64,000 nt of DNA from Cristatella mucedo (lineage: Eukaryota; Bryozoa; Phylactolaemata; Cristatellidae): contig WPIO01000032.1 of NCBI GenBank assembly GCA_009760855.2, positions 905,501-969,500 on the forward strand, written 5' to 3'. Shown here piece by piece: positions 9,086 to 62,225 of this stretch. The first letter of the stretch is position 1. Each line of letters begins with the position of its first letter. Made by a program: the position numbers and the translations under genes. The notes under the pieces are model-generated. The model ran no database searches and was not told where the DNA came from. It saw only the letters and a program-made list of their open reading frames with translations.

Positions 9086-9642
9086 GGCTTTTGAAGTGAC
9101 GTTTTCACCCACTCACACAAAAGATGACAGACACTTCGCGTCTATATATTGTATACACCCTAACATCGCGATGGGTGCACCTTACATAGCACCATCTACT
9201 CTCCACACACATCTTTTTTAAACGGTTACCTTCCTTTATTCCTCTTTTATTCATACTCTCTCATTAAGAATGCTGCAGTCGCGCACGCAATTTATTCGGG
9301 TGATGGCCTAGTGGATTTCACTTTGATGCCAGTCTTATCCAGCCTGCTGCCTTCGAGCAGGCGGTTGCAGGTGGGACACAGTTGGTCATCAATTTTCGTA
9401 CTTGGGCGGCTTAAGCACTCTGACTAGGAGGAAATTCGGCGCAGGTAATAAGGAGACATGATAGTTACAACCCAGCTGCCGCTTTCCTTAAGACACTAAA
9501 ATAATTGCGATCCTTAAAAATGAGACCCCAGTCAATCAATTGGGAGGATCCCGATACGATATTAGTCTAGATGGCTTAATCTAAACTCACTGTTTCCGCT
9601 GTCACAGAGCATCCATTTATTCAGCTTTTTGCCAGCCGGCAA
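9086..9642. promoter_or_regulatory. Region upstream of MRRF; probable promoter or 5' UTR intron
   Basis: No repeat is recognised here. Immediately before the MRRF ATG, the sequence CAGCTTTTTGCCAG at about 9618-9636 looks like a 3' splice acceptor, so the start codon may sit at the beginning of an exon preceded by a 5' UTR intron. No TATA box could be assigned. Confidence 0.3.
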
Positions 9643-10458
9643 ATGTCCTTCGCCTGCTCTCGCTCCTCGGCTTTCCTGAGGATTGTGCTGTGTCAACGTC
9701 GGTCTTTCAGCGATGGGTGTTTCTTAACAGGTGCTTTGCATAATTTTGTCTCCTGTCCTAAAGTTTATTTGTCGCGGTGCTCGCCGATTCTTCACCGTGC
9801 TGCTAGGACCATTTGGAGGACCTACACTTCCAAAACGAAAAAGGAGTTGCCTTCCAAGAAGGAGGGCACTTCTAAGTTGCAAACGACAGAGAGTGGGTTG
9901 ACAATCATTGCAGATTTTGAAAAGTTTCGTCAACAGCTGCAGCGTGTCGTTGATGAGCTGAAAGCTGACTTCACTCAGCAGTTAAATCTGAGAACCAACA
10001 TAGGTGCATTCGACCACCTGATTGTTGAGGCCGATGGTAAGAAATACCAGCTGAACACTGTCGCTCAGATTTCACAGCGTAGCCCCCAACTTGTGGCGCT
10101 TAATATGGTGGCGACACCCCAGTATATCACCGCTGTGAAAGCTGCCATCGCCAGTTCCGGCTTGAACGTTACTCCTCAGCAAGATGGAACTACCATCTTC
10201 ATACCACTGCCGAAAGTCACACGAGAGCATCGCGAAAATCTCGCCAAGTCTGCAAAGTCAATGTGTGACAAAGCTAAAGTGAAGCTCCGCGACGTTCAAA
10301 ATAAGTTCATTCGTGATTCCAGGAAGCACAAGGCCACTCAGTCAGCTGATCTCATTCGGGAGATTGAGAGCGAGCTTCACACAGTAACCCAGGAGTACGC
10401 ACTACAGGCAGATACCATAATGAAAGCTAAGCAAGAAGAACTTCTAGCTACTAACTGA
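9643..10458 (+). CDS. MRRF: Mitochondrial ribosome recycling factor
   Basis: A complete 271-codon frame with no interruption. Ribosome recycling factor works in the mitochondrial matrix after translation termination, splitting post-termination ribosomes together with the mitochondrial recycling EF-G paralogue. Residues 1-60 are rich in Arg, Ser and hydrophobic residues with almost no acids, as expected of a mitochondrial presequence. Residues 61-85 are a Lys/Thr linker. Residues 90-268 form the RRF domain: NLRTNIGAFDHLIVEADGKK (115-134), QISQRSPQLVALNM (142-155), then PLPKVTREHRENLAK (188-202) and KAKVKLRDVQNKF (210-222). The last two carry the charged helical signature that contacts the ribosome. 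The length suits animal MRRF. The start at 9643 is the first ATG of the frame and keeps the presequence. Vertebrate MRRF has several coding introns and this copy has none. No poly(A) tract or target duplication marks it as a retrocopy, so a genuine single-coding-exon gene is more likely. Confidence 0.93.
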   Translation: MSFACSRSSAFLRIVLCQRRSFSDGCFLTGALHNFVSCPKVYLSRCSPILHRAARTIWRTYTSKTKKELPSKKEGTSKLQTTESGLTIIADFEKFRQQLQRVVDELKADFTQQLNLRTNIGAFDHLIVEADGKKYQLNTVAQISQRSPQLVALNMVATPQYITAVKAAIASSGLNVTPQQDGTTIFIPLPKVTREHRENLAKSAKSMCDKAKVKLRDVQNKFIRDSRKHKATQSADLIREIESELHTVTQEYALQADTIMKAKQEELLATN

Positions 10459-13580: not shown

Positions 13581-13588
13581 TTCTAATG
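13581..13588. repeat. Left target-site duplication of the SPIN-like element
   Basis: TTCTAATG, identical to 13776-13783. Eight base pairs is the duplication length made by hAT transposases. Confidence 0.85.
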
Positions 13589-13775
13589 CAGCAGTTCTAA
13601 ACCTGTAGGCCGCGACCCCTTTGGGGGTCGAACGACCCTTTCACAGGGGGTATTTTAAGACGTCTGCAAACAGGCATGTCCATATTTTGCAAACAATAAT
13701 TTTATGGTTGAGGGTCACCAAGGCATGAGGAACTGTATTTAAGGGTCGCTGCATTAGGAAGGTTGAGAACCACAG
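13589..13775. mobile_element. SPIN-like non-autonomous hAT element (MITE)
   Basis: A 187-bp element with imperfect terminal inverted repeats: CAGCAGTTCTAAACCT on the left against CTGTGGTTCTCAACCT read from the right (12 of 16 match). Internal blocks GGCCGCGACCCCTTTGGGGG, TCGAACGACCCTTTCACAGG, TTTTATGGTTGAGGGTCACC and TGAGGAACTGTATTTAAGGG match the ends of the SPACE INVADERS (SPIN) hAT family as remembered. SPIN_NA elements are short, move with a transposase supplied in trans, and are known for patchy, horizontally acquired occurrence across tetrapods and some invertebrates. The element has no coding capacity. Its 8-bp target duplications (TTCTAATG on each side) are still identical. Confidence 0.85.
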
Positions 13776-13783
13776 TTCTAATG
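13776..13783. repeat. Right target-site duplication of the SPIN-like element
   Basis: TTCTAATG directly abuts the right terminal CAG and exactly repeats the left flank. Confidence 0.85.
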
Positions 13784-15232
13784 GATTTACATTTTGGAAA
13801 GTCATCCAGCAGCAAGCCACAGAGACTGGCTAGTAAGTGGCTTGACTATTGACACCGAAAAGGCATCTGGTGGTGGCTGCTCGGCAGCAGGGCCTGCAAC
13901 TGGACTCGCCAATCAACGTTCAGGCTGAGCTGACTGCAAGGGAATGTCAGTCTCAGCCCTATTACTCCTAGCTTGGGTGTTGTCTGACTGATTCATGTGA
14001 CTTTCGGCTGCTGACTCTGCCTCCTCTTTCCCATTGTCAGGACTGGACAGGACTCTCTCGTCTTTTTTACTCTCGCTCTCTGTACTAAGCTTTGGCATCA
14101 AATCATACCCATTTGGTTCGTTGAGTTATCCATCTTACTGCAATTCCTAGCAAGCTCTCAGTGAGGAGCAGTTGGGGTGCTTGTTTGCTATGCCGGTAGC
14201 TTGTCAGGGAATCAGCCAAGTATGCTGCTTCTGAATAGAGCTGGAAGCTTTGGCTTGCAAGCAGTTGCTACATGAGAGTATCATAGCTGATCTGGGACTT
14301 GAGATCATAACAGGTGCCACTCCTCATGCTAGCAGCATTAATAACTGCAGCAGCTGCTGTAGTAGACAGAGATTTGATCAAAATAGTGGTGCAGCTGGCC
14401 CTCTCACCAGTGCCTGGCCTATTGATGTGAGGTTAAAACATTGCTCCAGTGCTAGTAACAATTGTGTCGAGTTCACCAGCTGGGGGTTGGCTATTGTGTA
14501 TGAATAGGTGAGACAGGCATGTGTGTTAGCTTGCCTGTGGCCTACCAGTGAGTTTTGGCATTGCTTACCGATGGGCCAGCAGCTGTATGTGGATATCTGA
14601 CTTGGCATGTGTCTCTCAACTAGAGCATTGGGCCTGAGCTGACATACTTGTGGTTGACACTGTCTCACTAGTCCCATCCATCATTATTGCTGCTCTTTTT
14701 TATACTAGCTTTTACTGATAGGTGCACAAGCCTCTGATAATGGTCTACAGTGAGAATGGTAAGCACATTATCTGTGTCATTTGGGGGCTGATAGCTCATT
14801 TACTTGAGCTTGATGATACCCAGTGGATGTGCAATGGCTTGCATTGACTAGCTTCCTCATGTTTTATCCGGTGCCTATATTAATTCACCGTTGGATCTCC
14901 TATTATGCCGGATTCAGGATGACTTCAGCAGATCCCCGAAGGTTCGGTTTTGCGTCCTCTTTCCTGCCAGTCTTGACAGCCGTGTCCAATTGATCGAGCT
15001 GTTTCTTTCTCTCACACCTCACAAGAGTGTTGTATTCAGGTTTTCTATTTCTATACCTTCTAGTCAATATGTCCAGCCATTCCCAAATACAGACGGCGCA
15101 TGTTTGCTTATGACCGAGCTGTAGCTGGCATCGAAACCCATCAAGATCAATGTAGGTGCTTGCTGCGTCTAACCTTGAGCTGGTAGTATTTTGAGGCATA
15201 TCCATGCACACGTCCTTGAATGTGCGGATGTG

Positions 15233-15236
<4 letters not shown>
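13784..15236. other. No gene recognised
   Basis: Several 60-100 codon frames occur on both strands, none with recognisable motifs or good splice borders. No repeat family shared with the rest of the window was seen. Confidence 0.35.

Positions 15237-15298
<62 letters not shown>
15237..15298. repeat. (TG)n microsatellite
   Basis: About 30 near-perfect TG units. Cys/Val frames across it are artefacts. Confidence 0.95.
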
Positions 15299-15301
<3 letters not shown>

Positions 15302-15884
15302 CTGCTTGCCTGTGACAGCTGATCACCTGCATGTCAGTAGTGCAGCTGTGATTCTGCCACGGCCCCATGGTGCTATAGAATGCTCAAACGCTAAATGTTA
15401 TGTTCTTCACCTCGCCTACCTCTTTAGATATATCTTTGGCTATTTCATGATGCAGAGTGCCATTTATACAGATTTGCTGATTTGTTAGCCAGCATTAGCA
15501 TGGAAGATGTCTATGCCTTATTTGTCTGATTGTGTTTACTAATGTCATTGGTTAGGCAGATCATGTTCAAAAACCGGTAGCACTAAGAGCACAAATAAAT
15601 ATTCAGCTGAAATTTATTTGCCTTGGTTGGCCATGAAATAATGGAACAAGGGGTTTCACTTACTGGGGTATACAATGCTTTATAACTCAGCTTTGTAAAC
15701 TGATAACAACTATCTGCTATCAATACATCTTCGTTACCCACAAATACTGCCCCGTATTTCACGGAATAAGTACAAAGTCCTGTGATAATACAACTTATAG
15801 AGTCTTTCTTGGACCACAATTGTCACAACAAGAGAAGGAGAAGTGAGCTTCGACTTTGATAGTGGCAGTGAAACCATAGTTATC
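15299..15884. other. No gene recognised
   Basis: No exon, RNA gene or known repeat is identifiable. Confidence 0.35.
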
Positions 15885-16035
15885 TTATTTAAGAAGCTCA
15901 CTTGTATAGCTGACAGAAGAGCCGTTTTGGCTGCTACTCCTGCATTCAGTCAGCAATAACAAAGTGCCTGCTAAAAGAGTCGAGCTGACGACCTAGGTCC
16001 TAAAGTGTGAGTACCTCACCGTTAGTCAAAGGCAG
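15885..16035 (-). repeat. tRNA-derived SINE (family 2), degenerate, minus strand
   Basis: GCTGACAGAAGAGCCGTTTT and later GAGCTGACGACCTAGGTCC parallel the well-preserved family-2 copies at 46118 and 57108 (GCGACAGAAGAGCCTTTACG; ACCCACGACCTCGGGACC). This is the oldest of the three copies. Its tRNA-like boxes are barely recognisable. Confidence 0.55.
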
Positions 16036-16349
16036 TCCCTAAAGCGGGTGCCACATATTACGAAAAGCACTGCAAAATCGCAATAGCACCACAAATATCG
16101 AAAAAGATCCTATTCGGGCTACATTCACTGGTGCTTTATCCATTCAATGCATTGCTGCTAACGTGAGAGACATGCCTCTGCATCATAACTTGGCCCCACA
16201 TATGAGATCATAGTACCTTTAGCATGCGACATGCCATGGTGCCTAAAGCACATGCCTGGTAGATAAAGCATGAGCATACCATACCTAATACCTAAGGTTA
16301 GCTATATCTGTTAAAGTTTATTTTTGTGCATACATATACAAATTAGTAA

Positions 16350-26434: not shown

Positions 26435-27606
26435 TTAATACACGGATTCGGCATTGCTTCGGGTGCATAACGACTTACTTAAGAATGCAGACTTAGGTAG
26501 GGTCTCTTTGCTTTTATTTGCTCTATCTTTCGGCAGCTTTTAATACTATCGATCACCAAGACCTTCCTGAGCGACTCTCATCTCTGATGGGCATCACTAT
26601 CACTGCATGGAATGGTTCAGGTTCTATCTCAGTGAGAGAATCAAGAGTATTAATGTGAATGAACACAGATCACCAGAGGGTCCTCTGAAGTATGGGGTAA
26701 CTCGGAGCTCTGTGCTTGGACCTGCTTTTTTAGTTTGTACTCTCCCTCTTGCCGATGTGATTGCAAGGCACATTCTGGGCTTTAAATTCAAGGCAGATGA
26801 TACTCAGTTGTACCTTTATTTTGAATTTTCGCAGTTCTCCAGAACTTTGAATTCTCTCAATTCCCTAGCTGCATGCACTGATGACATCTGCACATGGATG
26901 ACAGCAAACTTCATTATATTAAATGTGGATAAAACGAACATACTAGTTATTGAAAAACCAAGCGTGATTCAGAAATTGGAAGCGTTAACACTCACAATAC
27001 TCTCTGTGACCATATCTCCTGCTGGTCTGCACGAAATCTAGGTGGTCTTTTTCAAAGTGGCCTTTCATTAGACGATGACATAATCTCCACGGCTAAGTCT
27101 ATCTAATTTCAGCTGCATAACATTGCTAAAACTCTATCTTGTGTAGACTCGATGCCACATTTAAACTGGTCCATGTATTTGGGACGTCCCGCTTAACTTC
27201 TGGAACTCACTGCTTCCTTGTCTACCGGCCTCTGCAATCAGGCGCTTAGTAGTGGTGCAAAACTCTGAGCCTAGGGTTGCCTGTTACGAGCTTCGCAGTT
27301 AATACATCACACCACTTCTCGCCGATCTGCACTCGCTACTAGTCAAGTAACTCATCGACTTCAAGGTTTTTTCACTCACCTTTAGGTTCTTCATTCTTTA
27401 GCTCCAGCCTATGTATCAGATCTACTCCCCCACCAGGCTAAGCATCGTACCACTGCTTATCGGAATCTAAACGCTTAGATATACCTCGTACGAACCTCAA
27501 ATCCTTTGGAGATCGTGCCTTGAGTTCGTATGCTCCCAAAGACTGAAGCTCACCCCCAACTTGTGTCATGGCATCCCTAGACGTGACCACGGTTATAAAG
27601 AAACGT
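26435..27606 (+). repeat. LINE-A reverse transcriptase fragment, plus strand
   Basis: The translation begins near RVHNDLLKNAD and continues through WFRFYLSERIKSINVNEHRS, GVTRSSVLGPAF and the polymerase active-site region [13 protein letters not shown] (about 26790-26830). It then reaches the thumb-domain linker NVDKTNILVIEKPSVIQKLE and, with frameshifts, the C-terminal end near 27540. The F/YADD motif is altered: Lys precedes ADD instead of Tyr. Several in-frame stops show it is dead. The family is L2/CR1-like non-LTR retrotransposons, which copy RNA into DNA at the nicked target. Confidence 0.85.
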
Positions 27607-30735: not shown

Positions 30736-31445
30736 TAATAATAATAATAATAATAATAATTCACTTGATAGAGCGCCCTCAGAGAACTTAATCTCTCTCT
30801 AGGCGCTTTACATTTGCTGTAAAGCGAAATGCCATTGAATGGTAAGTAAAATCATGCTTGAAAAAAATAAACGAAATGAATAATATGGTTAGGGGTGACA
30901 TGCACAGGGTCAGCATGCAAATGTGGTTAGTGGCAGCATGCACAGTGTCAGCACGCATAAGCACATCAAGGACGAATCACAGGGACCCACTAAATGCTGT
31001 CATAAATAGGTGTTTTTAAGTTCCTTTTAAATGTGGTCAGGTCAGGGGATGTTCTGACGCAGGTCGGGAGGGAGTTCCAGGCTTTGGGAGCATATGAACT
31101 AAATGCACGGTCTCCAAAGGATTTAAGGTTTGTATGAGGTAATTCTAGACTGTTGGATTCAGAAAATCGGGTGGTACGATGCTTAGCCTGATGGGGTAGT
31201 ATATCTGACAGATAGGCTGGAGCCATAGAAAGAAGGGACCTAAAAGTGAGCGACAAAACCTTGAAGTCAATCCGTTGCTTGACTGGTAGCCAGTGCAGGT
31301 CGGCGAGAAGTGGAGAAATGTGGCAACTGCGACGCTCACGACAGACAAGCCTAGCTGCAGAGTTTTGCACAAGCTGCAATCGCCTGATCGCACATGCTGG
31401 TAGGCCAGTAAGCAGTGAGTTGCAGAAGTCGAGACGGGATGTCAT
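30736..31445 (-). repeat. LINE-A insertion (5'-truncated) inside LINE-B, minus strand
   Basis: It starts on the plus strand with (AAT)n and CACTTGATAGAGCGCCCTCA, the inverted 3' end. It continues through the 3' untranslated region into a minus-strand frame of 151 codons (31445-30990): SRLDFCNSLLTGLPACAIRR, LLADLHWLPVKQRIDFKVLS, FGDRAFSSYAPKAWNSLP. This is the cleanest open frame of that region, which implies a relatively young insertion. The 5' truncation coincides with the point where LINE-B sequence resumes. Confidence 0.88.
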
Positions 31446-32700
31446 GTTACTGCATGGCTACTGCCGGACCTATCAGTTGCCTTCGACACTATTGATCACA
31501 ATATCAAACTTGAACCATTGAGAGCAATATCAGTCTGACAGATGAGGCACTGGCGAGGTTTAAATAGCACTTTTCTGCACGTCTTCAATCTGTGCGGTGT
31601 GACGGTCAGGTAATATCCATCACACCAGTTACATGTGGAGTCACATAACGGTCCGTTCTCAGTCCTTTGCAGTTATCCATTTATATTATCAACTTCTGAG
31701 AAACGGGATTCCGGCCCATGGAATAGGCTAACATTTGTATGCACCGGATATTCAGCTGCATTTATTGTTTAAAATGTGGAAATCTGCTTCAGTGCCTGAC
31801 AAACTGATTGCTTGCCTTGCAGACGTAATTTTCCTGAAAAAAACAACGATAAAACGCAACTACTACTCATAAGAAATTTCAATTGTGTAACCTGACTAGA
31901 AGACTTTGCTCTTCTAATAGGCGAAGCTATTGTGCGACCATCAGGTTGTACTCGGAATTCAGGTGTCGTCTTCGAAAGCTTCCTAAATTTTGAAAGCTTC
32001 GCTAAGAAGAATGCTTCCAAAGCTAGCCATCTGGTTCAATCGTTATCTAAGATTCGAAGAGTCTTTCACGGTGGCTGATAAAAATATTAACTAGCTCATT
32101 GGTTCCTTTTTGGCCAGATTATTGTAATTTTCTTTTAGCTGGGCAACCTAAAAAAATACCAGGCTGGCGATAGGTGATATGGTGATGCAGCTGGTGATAA
32201 ATATAACTTCAAGGCTAGTTTGAAAAAATTCCGGAGGTTTAACCATGTGTTTCCTTTGCTGAAAGAGCTTTGATGGCTGCTGTTTATCTAGTAGATACAG
32301 AGCAAAGTTCTTACACTGCCCACATGGTCCGTCATGGCTATGCTCGTTCATAACTAGCTGAACTGCTGAACCAGTTTCAGCCTTCTCGAGCCCTTGGGTC
32401 CTGTATGGACAAATATTAGCTGTTCTATTTCTCTAATTAATTACCATAGGCGACAGAAGCCTTTGTTCTGCGGTCCCAGACTGTGAAAGTCACTTTCACA
32501 TTTCTTACGCAACGACTACTACTCTCCATCTGCCGACTATGGCACATCCTTTCCAGCCGTCCTGAGCTACTGCTTCCCCGTTCCTCATTACCTCAACTGC
32601 TCGCATGACTGGGCTATGCTTCTCCTTTTACATTTTTTCGTGAGATAAAGTCTGCGGGCTACCGAATGCATACTGAGAGCTGCTTGGGCTGTGAGTGGGC
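31446..32700 (+). repeat. LINE-B fragment, downstream half of a split element
   Basis: The translation resumes with LLPDLSVAFDTIDH (equivalent to LALLDLSAAFDTIDH), the start of the reverse transcriptase palm. It runs with many stops through NDKTQLLLIRNFNCVT, NSGVVFESFLNFESFAKKNA and ASHLVQSLSKIRR, to the end of the coding region near 32650. There TTCTTACGCAACGACTACTA matches the reverse complement of 60961-60990. It is heavily decayed. Confidence 0.8.
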
Positions 32701-43260: not shown

Positions 43261-44077
43261 ACATTTTCCCCTGGACGTCCCCCCCCCGACATTGCCCCCC
43301 TCCCGGATAGGACGTTTCCCGCATGTTGATTAATGTAAACTAAAAAAGATGAAGTTCACGCTCTATTAATATAAAATCAACTCAGTATAATTAGAAGGAA
43401 TGGATGGATTGGAAGGATGGTTTCTAATGGAGCGAGCGGCTGCGGCGGCGGTTGCATCAGCGGTGGTTGCGTCAGCGGCGGTTGCGTCAGCGGCGATTTC
43501 GGCGGCGGCGACGGAGAGCTATACAGTTCGGTCCCGCGGGAGTTCGGTCCCGCTCGACGGCGCTAGGCACGTGTTCGTAATCCTCAACGCGGGTGCGGAC
43601 TACGGCGTGCGGCGCGTTCCTGCAAATGAGCGCGAAGCCTCAGAGGTCTACTGAGTACAACTCGATCTCAAGAGATCTCGCTACGCCCCCATACACACTT
43701 ATTAAGCTCGGAATAGGCTTAAGGGTGGATTTAGACAGCGGGAAAGCACCGCCTGCCCTAAACCCTAAATCCTAAAACCCTAAACACTAAAACCTAAACC
43801 CTGAAAACCGTAAGGCCTATAATCACCATAAACACTAAACACTAAAACCTGAAAACCGTAAACCTTATAATCACCCTAAACACTAAACCTAAGCACTAAA
43901 CCCTGAACACTAAACCCTAAAACCTTAAACACTAAACCATAAACACTAAAACCTAAACCCTTAAACCATAAACCCTATAATCACCCGAAACACGAAACCC
44001 TAAGCACTAAACCCTAAACCGTAAACCATATACGGGGGAATGTCTAACCGAAGGGGGAAACGTCCAGGGGGAAATGT
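43261..44077. mobile_element. Possible DNA element bounded by C-rich inverted repeats
   Basis: The left end reads ACATTTTCCCCTGGACG, then a run of C, GACATTGCCCCCC. The right end, read on the minus strand from 44077, gives ACATTTCCCCCTGGACG, then TTTCCCCC and GACATTCCCCC. The pair is inverted, about 40 bp long and imperfect. Inside are a GC-rich stretch with GCGG-type repeats (43430-43650) and the A/C-rich array. No transposase frame or target duplication is evident. It may be a non-autonomous transposon, or a fortuitous foldback. Confidence 0.4.
43757..44035. repeat. Degenerate AAACCCT-like tandem array
   Basis: About 280 bp made of CCCTAAA, CACTAAA and ACCATAAA words, with a longer phrase containing TATAATCACC recurring near 43818, 43871 and 43977. 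It resembles plant-type telomere heptamers (TTTAGGG) but is too irregular, and animal telomeres use TTAGGG, so it is treated as an interstitial satellite. Confidence 0.8.
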
Positions 44078-52902: not shown

Positions 52903-54237
52903 ATAATAATAATGTACTTGATGAAGCGCCCTCAGAGAACTTAATCTCTTTCTAGGCGCTTTACATTTGCTGCAAAGGGAAATGCAATTAAATGGTAAGT
53001 AAAATCATGCTTGAAAAACAAACAAAATGTATAACCAGGTTAGGGGTGACATGCACAGGGTCAGCACGCATAAGCACGTGAAGGACGAATCACAAGGACC
53101 CACTAAATGCTGTCCTAAATAGGTGTGTTTTTTAGTTCCTTTTAAATGTGGCCAGGTCAGGGATGTTCTGACGAAGGTCGGGAGGGAGTTCCAGGCTTTG
53201 GGAGCATACGAACTAAATGCACGGTCTCCAAAGGATTTGAGGTTTGTACGAGGTATTTCTAAACTGTTTGATTCGGAAAAGCGCATGGTACGATGCTTGG
53301 CCTGATGGAGGAGTATGTCGGAGAGATAGGCTGGAGCCATAGAATGAAGGGACCTAAAAGTGAGCGAAAACACTTTGAAGTCAATCCGTTGCTTGACTGG
53401 TAGCCAGTGCAGGTCGGCGAGAAGTGGAGAAATGTGGCAACTGCGACGCTCACGACAGACAAGCCTAGCTGCAGAGTTTTGCACAAGCTGCAATCGCCTG
53501 ATCGCACATGCTGGTAGGCCAGTAAGCAGCGAGTTGCAGAAGTCGAGACGAGATGTCACGAATGCATGGACCAACTTGGACGTGGTATCCTTATCTAAAC
53601 AAGCCCGAATTTTAGCAATATTATGAAACTGAAAATAGGCAGATTTGACTGTGGAGCTGATATGGTCGTCTAACGAGAGGTCGCTTTGGAATATGACACC
53701 TAGATTTCGAGCTGATTCGACAGGAGATATGCTGGCAGAGTCAATTTTGAGAGACAGCCTTTCCAATCTCTGAATCACACTGGGTTTTCCCATAACTAGT
53801 AAGTTAGTTTTGTCATAGTTTAGTTTTAGAAAATTTGCTGCCATCCATGTGCGGATGTCATCAATGCATGCTGCAAGTGAGTTTAGAGAACTTGAGGTGC
53901 TCGAAGGCTGGGGGGTTCAAAGCAAAGGTACAACTGAGTGTCATCCGCATAGAAGTGAAAGCCTAGATTGTGCTTGGCAATCACATCAGCAAGAGGGACA
54001 GTATAAACCGTGAAAAGAACCGGACCTAGCACGGAGCGCTGAGGTACTCCATATTTCACAGGTACTTCAGATGATCTTTGTCCATTCACGTCAATACTCT
54101 GTAGTCTCCCACTGAGATTGGACCTGAACCACTGCAGAGCAGTGCCAGTGATGCCCGGGCGAGATGAGAAGAGCTCTAGAAGAACTTTGTGATCGATGGT
54201 TTCAAAAGCTGCCGAAAGATCGAGCAAAACAAGCATG
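52903..54237 (-). repeat. LINE-A, best-preserved 3' two-thirds, minus strand
   Basis: The minus strand encodes two long frames separated by one frameshift near 53880. The frame 54236-53883 has the reverse transcriptase palm: LVLLDLSAAFETIDHKVLLE, GVPQRSVLGPVLFTVYTVPL and the catalytic [14 protein letters not shown]. The frame 53844-53005 (279 codons) has the thumb and C-terminal part: LNYDKTNLLVMGKPSVIQRL, ARNLGVIFQSDLSLDDHISS, SRLDFCNSLLTGLPACAIRR, LHWLPVKQRIDFKVFSLTF, FGDRAFSSYAPKAWNSLPTF. This motif series is typical of the L2/CR1 clade. The endonuclease part is missing because of 5' truncation. The 3' end is the inverted AATAATAAT terminus. It is the least damaged LINE in the window. Confidence 0.93.
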
Positions 54238-54243
54238 TGTGTC

Positions 54244-54279
<36 letters not shown>

Positions 54280-60739: not shown

Positions 60740-62225
60740 TCATAAAGACCATATGGTGTTACGCAGGAGAGTTTTGTATAGCGCATTCACAGCCTACGCG
60801 GCTTTCGGCACCAATTCGGAAGCCAACAGACTTCGTCTCACGCAACAAAGAGACAGTGGAAAGCATAGCAGAGTCAGGAGAGCAGTTGAGGTAGTGAGTA
60901 GCATAGAAGTAGCAGTTTAGGACCGCTGAAAAAGATGTGCCATAGTCGGCAGTTGGAGAGTAGTTGTCGTTGCGTAAGAACTGTGGAAGCGAGTTCCACA
61001 GTCTAGGACCGGCAGAGTTAAAGCTTCTATCGCCAACTTTCTTTAAGCGGAGGAATGGGACAGCTAATTTATTGTCCACACAGGAGACACACCTGAGGGC
61101 GCGAACAGGCTGAAACTGATGCAGCAGTTCAGCTAGGTACAAAGGAGCCAAGCCGTGGCGGGCCTTGTGGGTCAGCTTAAGAACTTTGCTCTGTATCCTT
61201 TGCTCAACCGGCAACCATCCTAGCTCTTTCAGCAGAGGTGACTCGTGCTCAAACCGCGAGGACTTGAAGACCAGCCTTGCAGCCATATTCATAGTCAGCT
61301 GTAGTGGCATAATAGCTTTCTTTGGCAGCCCAGCCAAAAGGGAATTACAATAATCAAGCCGAGACAGAACCAAAGAGATAGTTAAATTGTTTACAAGCCA
61401 CTGTGGGAGACAGCTTCTAATCTTGGATAGGGATCGGATGTGATGGCTAGCTGTAGAGGCAGTCTTCTGAATGAAGCTTTTGAAATTGAGGCAGCTGTCG
61501 AACACGACACCTAGATTACGAGCTCGTGGTGAAGGTCGCACAGTGGCATCACCTATTAGAACAGCAAAGCCTTTTAATCCAGCTACACGCTTAGGGTGTC
61601 CAATGAGCAGCAGTTTGGTTTTATCGTCATTTAATTTCAGGAAGTTTTCCGACATCCAGGATCGAATATCGGCAAGGCAAGCATTCAGTTTCTCAGTTGC
61701 TGCAGCAGATTCCGACGGTTTAAATCACAAATACAACTGAGTATCGTCAGCATAGAAGTGATATCCTATTCCATGGGCCTTAATCACTTTTCCCAGAGGT
61801 TGTGTATAAATGGAGAACAGCAAGGGACCAAGAACAGACCCTTGAGGGACTCCACAGGTGACCCTTCTCATGTCTGAGACCTGACCCCCACACGACACGG
61901 ATTAAACACGATCAGACAAGTATGATTCAAACCACGCCAGTGCTTTGTCTGCCAGACCGATCGTTGTTCTCAATTGTTCAGCAGAACTTCGTGATCAATG
62001 GTGTCGAAGGCAGCAGACAGATCTAGCAGAGCTAGGGCAGTGACATTCCCGTCGTCGTTGCCACTTAGAATGTCATTGTTAACACGGAGGAGAGCAGTTT
62101 CAGTAGAGTGCTGCCTCTTGAACCCTGATCGAAATGTTTCTGACATTCCATTATTTTCAATATGTTCAACTTGCTGCTTAGCAACAATTTCTTCAAGAAT
62201 CTTTGACCTTCCATAAAAGAAATTA
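60740..62225 (-). repeat. LINE-B, reverse transcriptase to C-terminus, minus strand
   Basis: The minus strand reads, from 62225: LEEIVAKQQVEHIENN, STETALLRVNNDILSGN, LALLDLSAAFDTIDHEVLLN. After frameshifts, a degraded palm with TSMLTILSC in the YADD frame-shifted position follows. Then comes an intact 298-codon frame (61655-60759): FLKLNDDKTKLLLIGHPKRV, ARNLGVVFDSCLNFKSFIQK, SRLDYCNSLLAGLPKKAIMP, LLKELGWLPVEQRIQSKVLK, VGDRSFNSAGPRLWNSLPQF. The motif order is that of L2/CR1 elements, distinct from LINE-A at about half of residues. The long C-terminal frame is the best LINE-B sequence here. It faces the endonuclease fragment tail to tail. Confidence 0.92.

Follow-up and report, generated by a model that had tools for sequence, protein, structure and literature searches.

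The 64,000-nucleotide stretch analysed here (the window; C255:905501-969500 of host assembly G000, which has 572,011,866 bases in 688 contigs) very probably carries a non-autonomous deletion derivative, or MITE, of a SPIN-type element from the Buster branch of hAT, belonging to an apparently horizontally transferred family whose examined full-length copies are dead. The preliminary description had reported a 187-bp element with identical 8-bp duplications, and it is there as reported: the element occupies 13589-13775 on the forward strand, between a left (13581-13588) and a right (13776-13783) target-site duplication, both reading TTCTAATG and both fitting nnnTAnnn. The inverted ends hold for the family consensus, where the short, hAT-style terminal repeats match at 15/16 positions, but are degenerate in the window copy, where the left repeat (13589-13604) matches the right one (13760-13775) at 12/16. 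The internal near-palindrome is confirmed as the subterminal palindromic stretch CGACCCCTTTGGGGGTCGAACGACCC at 13613-13638, where the window copy is identical to the consensus. An exact 37-mer that includes this stretch (13613-13649) has 34 matches genome-wide, the window copy among them (20 forward, 14 reverse), and its reversed control has none. There is no second copy of the 187-bp element within the 64-kb window. A query that fused the two flanks across a single duplication, as two pieces overlapping by the 8 duplicated bases, matched only its own site (one candidate, one scored), and this joined-flank search found no empty paralogue of the insertion site in the host genome.

Several other features were noted elsewhere in the window. 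An uninterrupted 292-codon frame at 9580-10458 (+) matches the ribosome recycling factor domain PF01765 at E 1.6e-36 and probably encodes the mitochondrial RRF, whether it is an intronless gene or a retrocopy. A degenerate CCCTAAA-like array at 43756-44030, with higher-order units of 29-111 bp, resembles telomere-type repeats inside the contig. Non-LTR reverse transcriptase remnants lie at 53886-54278 (-; RVT_1 above cut-off, E 4.4e-12) and at 60762-61724 (-; RVT_1 weak and below cut-off, E 0.018). The frames 53005-53916 (-), 30990-31457 (-) and 26571-27041 (+) look similar by eye, and a domain search of the first and last gave no RVT hit. Neither Rfam, at its gathering threshold, nor a tRNA scan returned anything for the window.

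A search for further host copies, as the preliminary description had suggested, uncovered a large family. The element as query gave at least 41 matches, 40 of them besides the window copy itself (40 of 2,059 candidates scored), with a best E outside the window of 8.3e-51 among the scored candidates; these two figures place the element far beyond chance. The 29-mer at its 3′ end, allowing up to three mismatches, occurs at 633 + 650 = 1,283 genome sites (reversed control, 0 + 0), the first 100 places being listed, all of them exact. With more diverged copies included, we estimate the family at about two thousand. A 187-bp consensus was built from the 39 fetched stretches (20 + 19) that hold the 40 other copies, and the first 20 stretches alone gave the same sequence. 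It represents 39 other copies, omitting one (L024b) that is a different deletion form and lies 26/180 off the consensus. At the locus of that copy (C676, matches at 2828050 and 2828319), a pair of oppositely oriented SPIN-type MITEs, each of its own deletion form, is separated by about 100 bases; the duplication is perfect and TA-centred in one and matches at 6/8 in the other.

Target duplications were evaluated over 41 copies with the element ends fixed by alignment. Identity between the flanks is 0.787 at 8 bp versus 0.19-0.29 at 6, 7, 9 and 10 bp, so that the family makes the 8-bp duplications of hAT elements; they match at 8/8 in 12 copies, at 7/8 in 14 and at fewer positions in 15. Among the 30 copies with at least 6/8 matching, position 4 is T in 57/60 and position 5 is A in 55/60, the nnnTAnnn pattern of Buster elements, and a central TA is found on both sides in 26/41 copies and on at least one side in 40/41. 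The duplication in the window obeys the same pattern.

Intact duplications had been taken to argue against great age, and this part of the preliminary description is not supported. The window copy has 28 substitutions in 187 positions relative to the consensus, the highest count of the 40 aligned copies (next, 16/186), within a set that is biased toward the consensus, the 39 others having been retrieved as best hits with the window copy as query. Nine of the 28 are private to the window copy, and nine more are shared with only one or two of the 39 others. Perfect duplications are found in 12/41 copies, and reading them as a sign of youth is unsupported here. The 39 other copies average 5.8% off the consensus (range 3.2-8.6%; CpG sites 13.3%, the rest 4.8%). 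A recent insertion, argued from the 8/8 duplications of the window copy, is improbable against this load of rare substitutions, even allowing that half of them (14/28, by alignment to the consensus) fall within one 29-bp stretch at 13650-13678, which could be one event rather than slow decay. It is also on the side of recency that, once the 29-mer is set aside, divergence at the 3′ end is not exceptional, with 4/53 in the window copy versus 56/632 (8.9%) in 12 of the 100 listed sites; the best-hit set has 135/2,061 in the same region, and one site (L121) alone has 11/52 outside the 29-mer and may be another form. On these alignments the divergence of the family is roughly 9%, and that of the window copy over its whole length more. 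Considered alone, this copy is an old and unremarkable MITE.

The likeness to SPIN extends to printed vertebrate DNA. Mouse genomic DNA in the retrieved part of PMC8376875 matches the 3′ end of the consensus at 67/80 positions (score 90; best of 200 shuffles, 23) and the window copy at 63/78 (score 76), while two mouse primers in the retrieved part of PMC2767504 match consensus positions 1-19 at 18/19 and 56-75 at 18/20. A sequence printed in a third paper gives a 15/16 match to the 5′ end only. Murine rodents are named among SPIN carriers in the accessible text of PMC5857283. An uncurated rodent reference element aligns with the whole consensus at 180/187 columns, with the gaps for a longer middle left out of the count. 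When an uncurated rodent-type 105-nt 3′ end was searched against the host genome, at least 41 matches were obtained (40 of 2,016 candidates scored), the best being 95% over 105/105. The first 24 or so bases of this query are absent from the window element, and the comparison was not blind, since host copy L024b with part of the stretch was already visible beforehand. Exact-pattern scans for a reference copy in viral contigs and in prokaryote genomes gave zero each, a result from which little can be read with exact patterns.

Given these matches, and with references that are partly uncurated and printed mouse pieces that are short, the SPIN label appears to hold. The host element resembles the SPIN of murine rodents and other tetrapods in its end and subterminal sequence (from the printed mouse DNA and the uncurated rodent element), and differs in having an invertebrate host and, in the 187-bp form, its own internal deletion join. 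Within the excerpts consulted, PMC3499496 describes nnnTAnnn duplications as the rule for TcBuster and places SPIN with Buster in one subfamily, and PMC4054807 files SPIN under hAT-Charlie instead. TcBuster, an active beetle transposon, has the same 8-bp nnnTAnnn duplications as the elements here and is likened to them by those duplications, not by sequence.

The family also includes longer relatives. In 28 of the 30 loci from the 105-nt 3′-end search, a similarly oriented 5′ end was located upstream. The resulting forms are mostly 180-612 bp; a single form reaches 919 bp, and L111 has an interruption inside its 5′ end. L091 is without a 5′ end, and the end pairing in L096 is spurious. A piece of the 919-bp form has six genome matches, itself included (6/6 candidates scored), of which three were fetched. 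One of the three (L114) is a form with its ends about 1.1 kb apart, and the other two fall inside full-length copies. The first, at C133:3519332-3522441 (3,110 bp), has ATCTAAAT on both sides (duplication 8/8), and the second, at C111:23756954-23760241 on the minus strand (3,288 bp), is flanked by GTTTAAGC and GATTAAGC (duplication 7/8). They are about 83% identical to each other and have both ends in common with the deletion forms. Since a 608-bp form is collinear with both ends of a full-length copy, consisting of about its first 420 and its last 189 bases, the short forms are internal deletion products of such full-length elements. The preliminary description had proposed a search for an autonomous transposase; full-length copies exist, but the coding region of both is broken by stops and frameshifts. 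Pieces of it may resemble SPIN transposase. Comparison of the transposase pieces with Pfam gave no hAT family and only unrelated matches (best E 0.029), and comparison with PDB gave nothing relevant and one unrelated match (E 0.95). The claim of a SPIN-like hAT MITE is upheld by the ends, the nnnTAnnn duplications, the deletion forms, the full-length relatives and the printed mouse DNA.

Another hAT family in the host genome was considered as the autonomous partner of the MITE. It has the dimerization domain PF05699, with 62 of the 138 listed hits scoring 73.5-78 bits and 16 of those 62 in frames of 635-642 amino acids. Thirty loci were fetched (L054-L083); compared with one of their number over the longest stretch that aligns, they show 99.0-99.8% identity, and this family looks very recently active; two of its loci share the contig of the window (C255:1103080 and C255:1562171). 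It was rejected as the partner because SPIN ends are absent from the 30 fetched loci; alignment of its 3′-terminal 200 nt to the SPIN-type consensus gives scores of 15 and 13, no better than shuffles.

Horizontal transfer, received or given, is well supported as the best explanation of the family's presence. Descent would not be expected to leave non-coding DNA so alike in a lophotrochozoan and in a rodent, and transfer of SPIN between species is described in print (accessible passages of PMC11614815, PMC5440852 and PMC5857283). The preliminary description held that this genome received SPIN horizontally; transfer stands on the non-coding DNA common to lophotrochozoan and mouse, but the direction ‘received’ is no better supported than ‘given’. 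A native, vertically inherited lophotrochozoan family of Buster type with merely SPIN-like ends could draw on the uncurated reference set, on the transposase pieces without a hAT match, and on the occurrence of a SPIN-like hAT at about 1,000 copies in another lophotrochozoan, a snail (retrieved part of PMC5440852). It is nevertheless unlikely, because the similarity reaches non-coding sequence well inside the ends, as in the mouse copy (67/80) and the uncurated rodent-type end (95% over 105/105), and such conservation by descent since the protostome-deuterostome split would be unexpected.

A snail has already been described in print as a carrier of SPIN-like elements: the Biomphalaria glabrata elements of PMC5440852, likened here by description, also belong to a lophotrochozoan host, and the retrieved passages of that study state that no intact DNA transposases were detected. 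Rhodnius prolixus likewise is an invertebrate with vertebrate-like non-autonomous elements (SPIN_NA, per the accessible part of PMC11614815), although it is a blood-feeding insect. Among the open-licence papers listed we found no report of SPIN in a nemertean or any other non-molluscan lophotrochozoan, which does not prove absence. What we have found is a known kind of mobile DNA moving between species, not something new.

The host itself was placed by its mitochondrial genome, the 21,008-base contig C688 (L032, L033 and L053), in which COX1 was found via Pfam, other genes were read from frames and tRNAs are ARAGORN predictions, some of them spurious. Translation with code 5 makes sense of COX1, which has 5 AGA, 3 AGG and 11 TGA codons. 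We read the gene block nad1-P-nad6-cob-S2-T-nad4L-nad4-H-nad5-F, in which P and T lie on the opposite strand, as lophotrochozoan in type. From mitochondrial code and gene order we conclude that the host is a lophotrochozoan, not a vertebrate. A nemertean affinity was not accepted: nemerteans have trnP and trnT alone on the other strand (accessible part of PMC3368773), whereas C688 also has a putative nad2 and several predicted tRNAs there, and its 21,008 bases compare with 14,558-16,296 in that source. The mollusc haemocyanin domain PF14830 had no hit in the host, and the control was equally silent. On this contig a 2.1-kb block forms a two-unit direct repeat and has a 1.8-kb counterpart in inverted orientation. 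The units are 100% identical, and the arrangement could be genuine or produced by assembly. The element had been put forward as a clue to host identity; because SPIN is patchy it is a weak one, and the mitochondrial contig is more informative.

Contamination of the assembly by vertebrate DNA would be a natural concern with a family known from mammals. Its probability is negligible, since the copies are scattered across dozens of contigs, which reach 24.8 Mb in length, the flanks in the window are unique to the site and continuous with the element, and the mitochondrial contig is of invertebrate type; copy number and spread refute it in practice.

From the observed structure, duplications, deletion forms and dead full-length copies we infer a cut-and-paste course with a preference for TA, followed by amplification and loss of the source. 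Transposase from full-length copies would have acted in trans, binding the ends and subterminal sequence; this Buster-type enzyme would have excised the element and inserted it at a TA-centred site, where repair would have left the 8-bp duplication. Horizontal transfer may have brought the family into the lophotrochozoan lineage or carried it out; amplification would have been mainly of short forms, with later loss of the transposase source.

With these results the known carriers of SPIN-type elements include one more invertebrate, whose genome has many copies as well as full-length relatives. More tentatively, and at somewhat less than even odds in our judgement, the host would be a lophotrochozoan, perhaps of a phylum new to SPIN, with a whole SPIN family (more than 1,000 MITE sites, several deletion forms and full-length copies) whose ends are almost identical to the mammalian ones, and invertebrates could be a reservoir repeatedly seeding tetrapods. 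For a named host, a tree of transposases could be used to test which donor and which route lay behind a classic case of horizontal transposon transfer.
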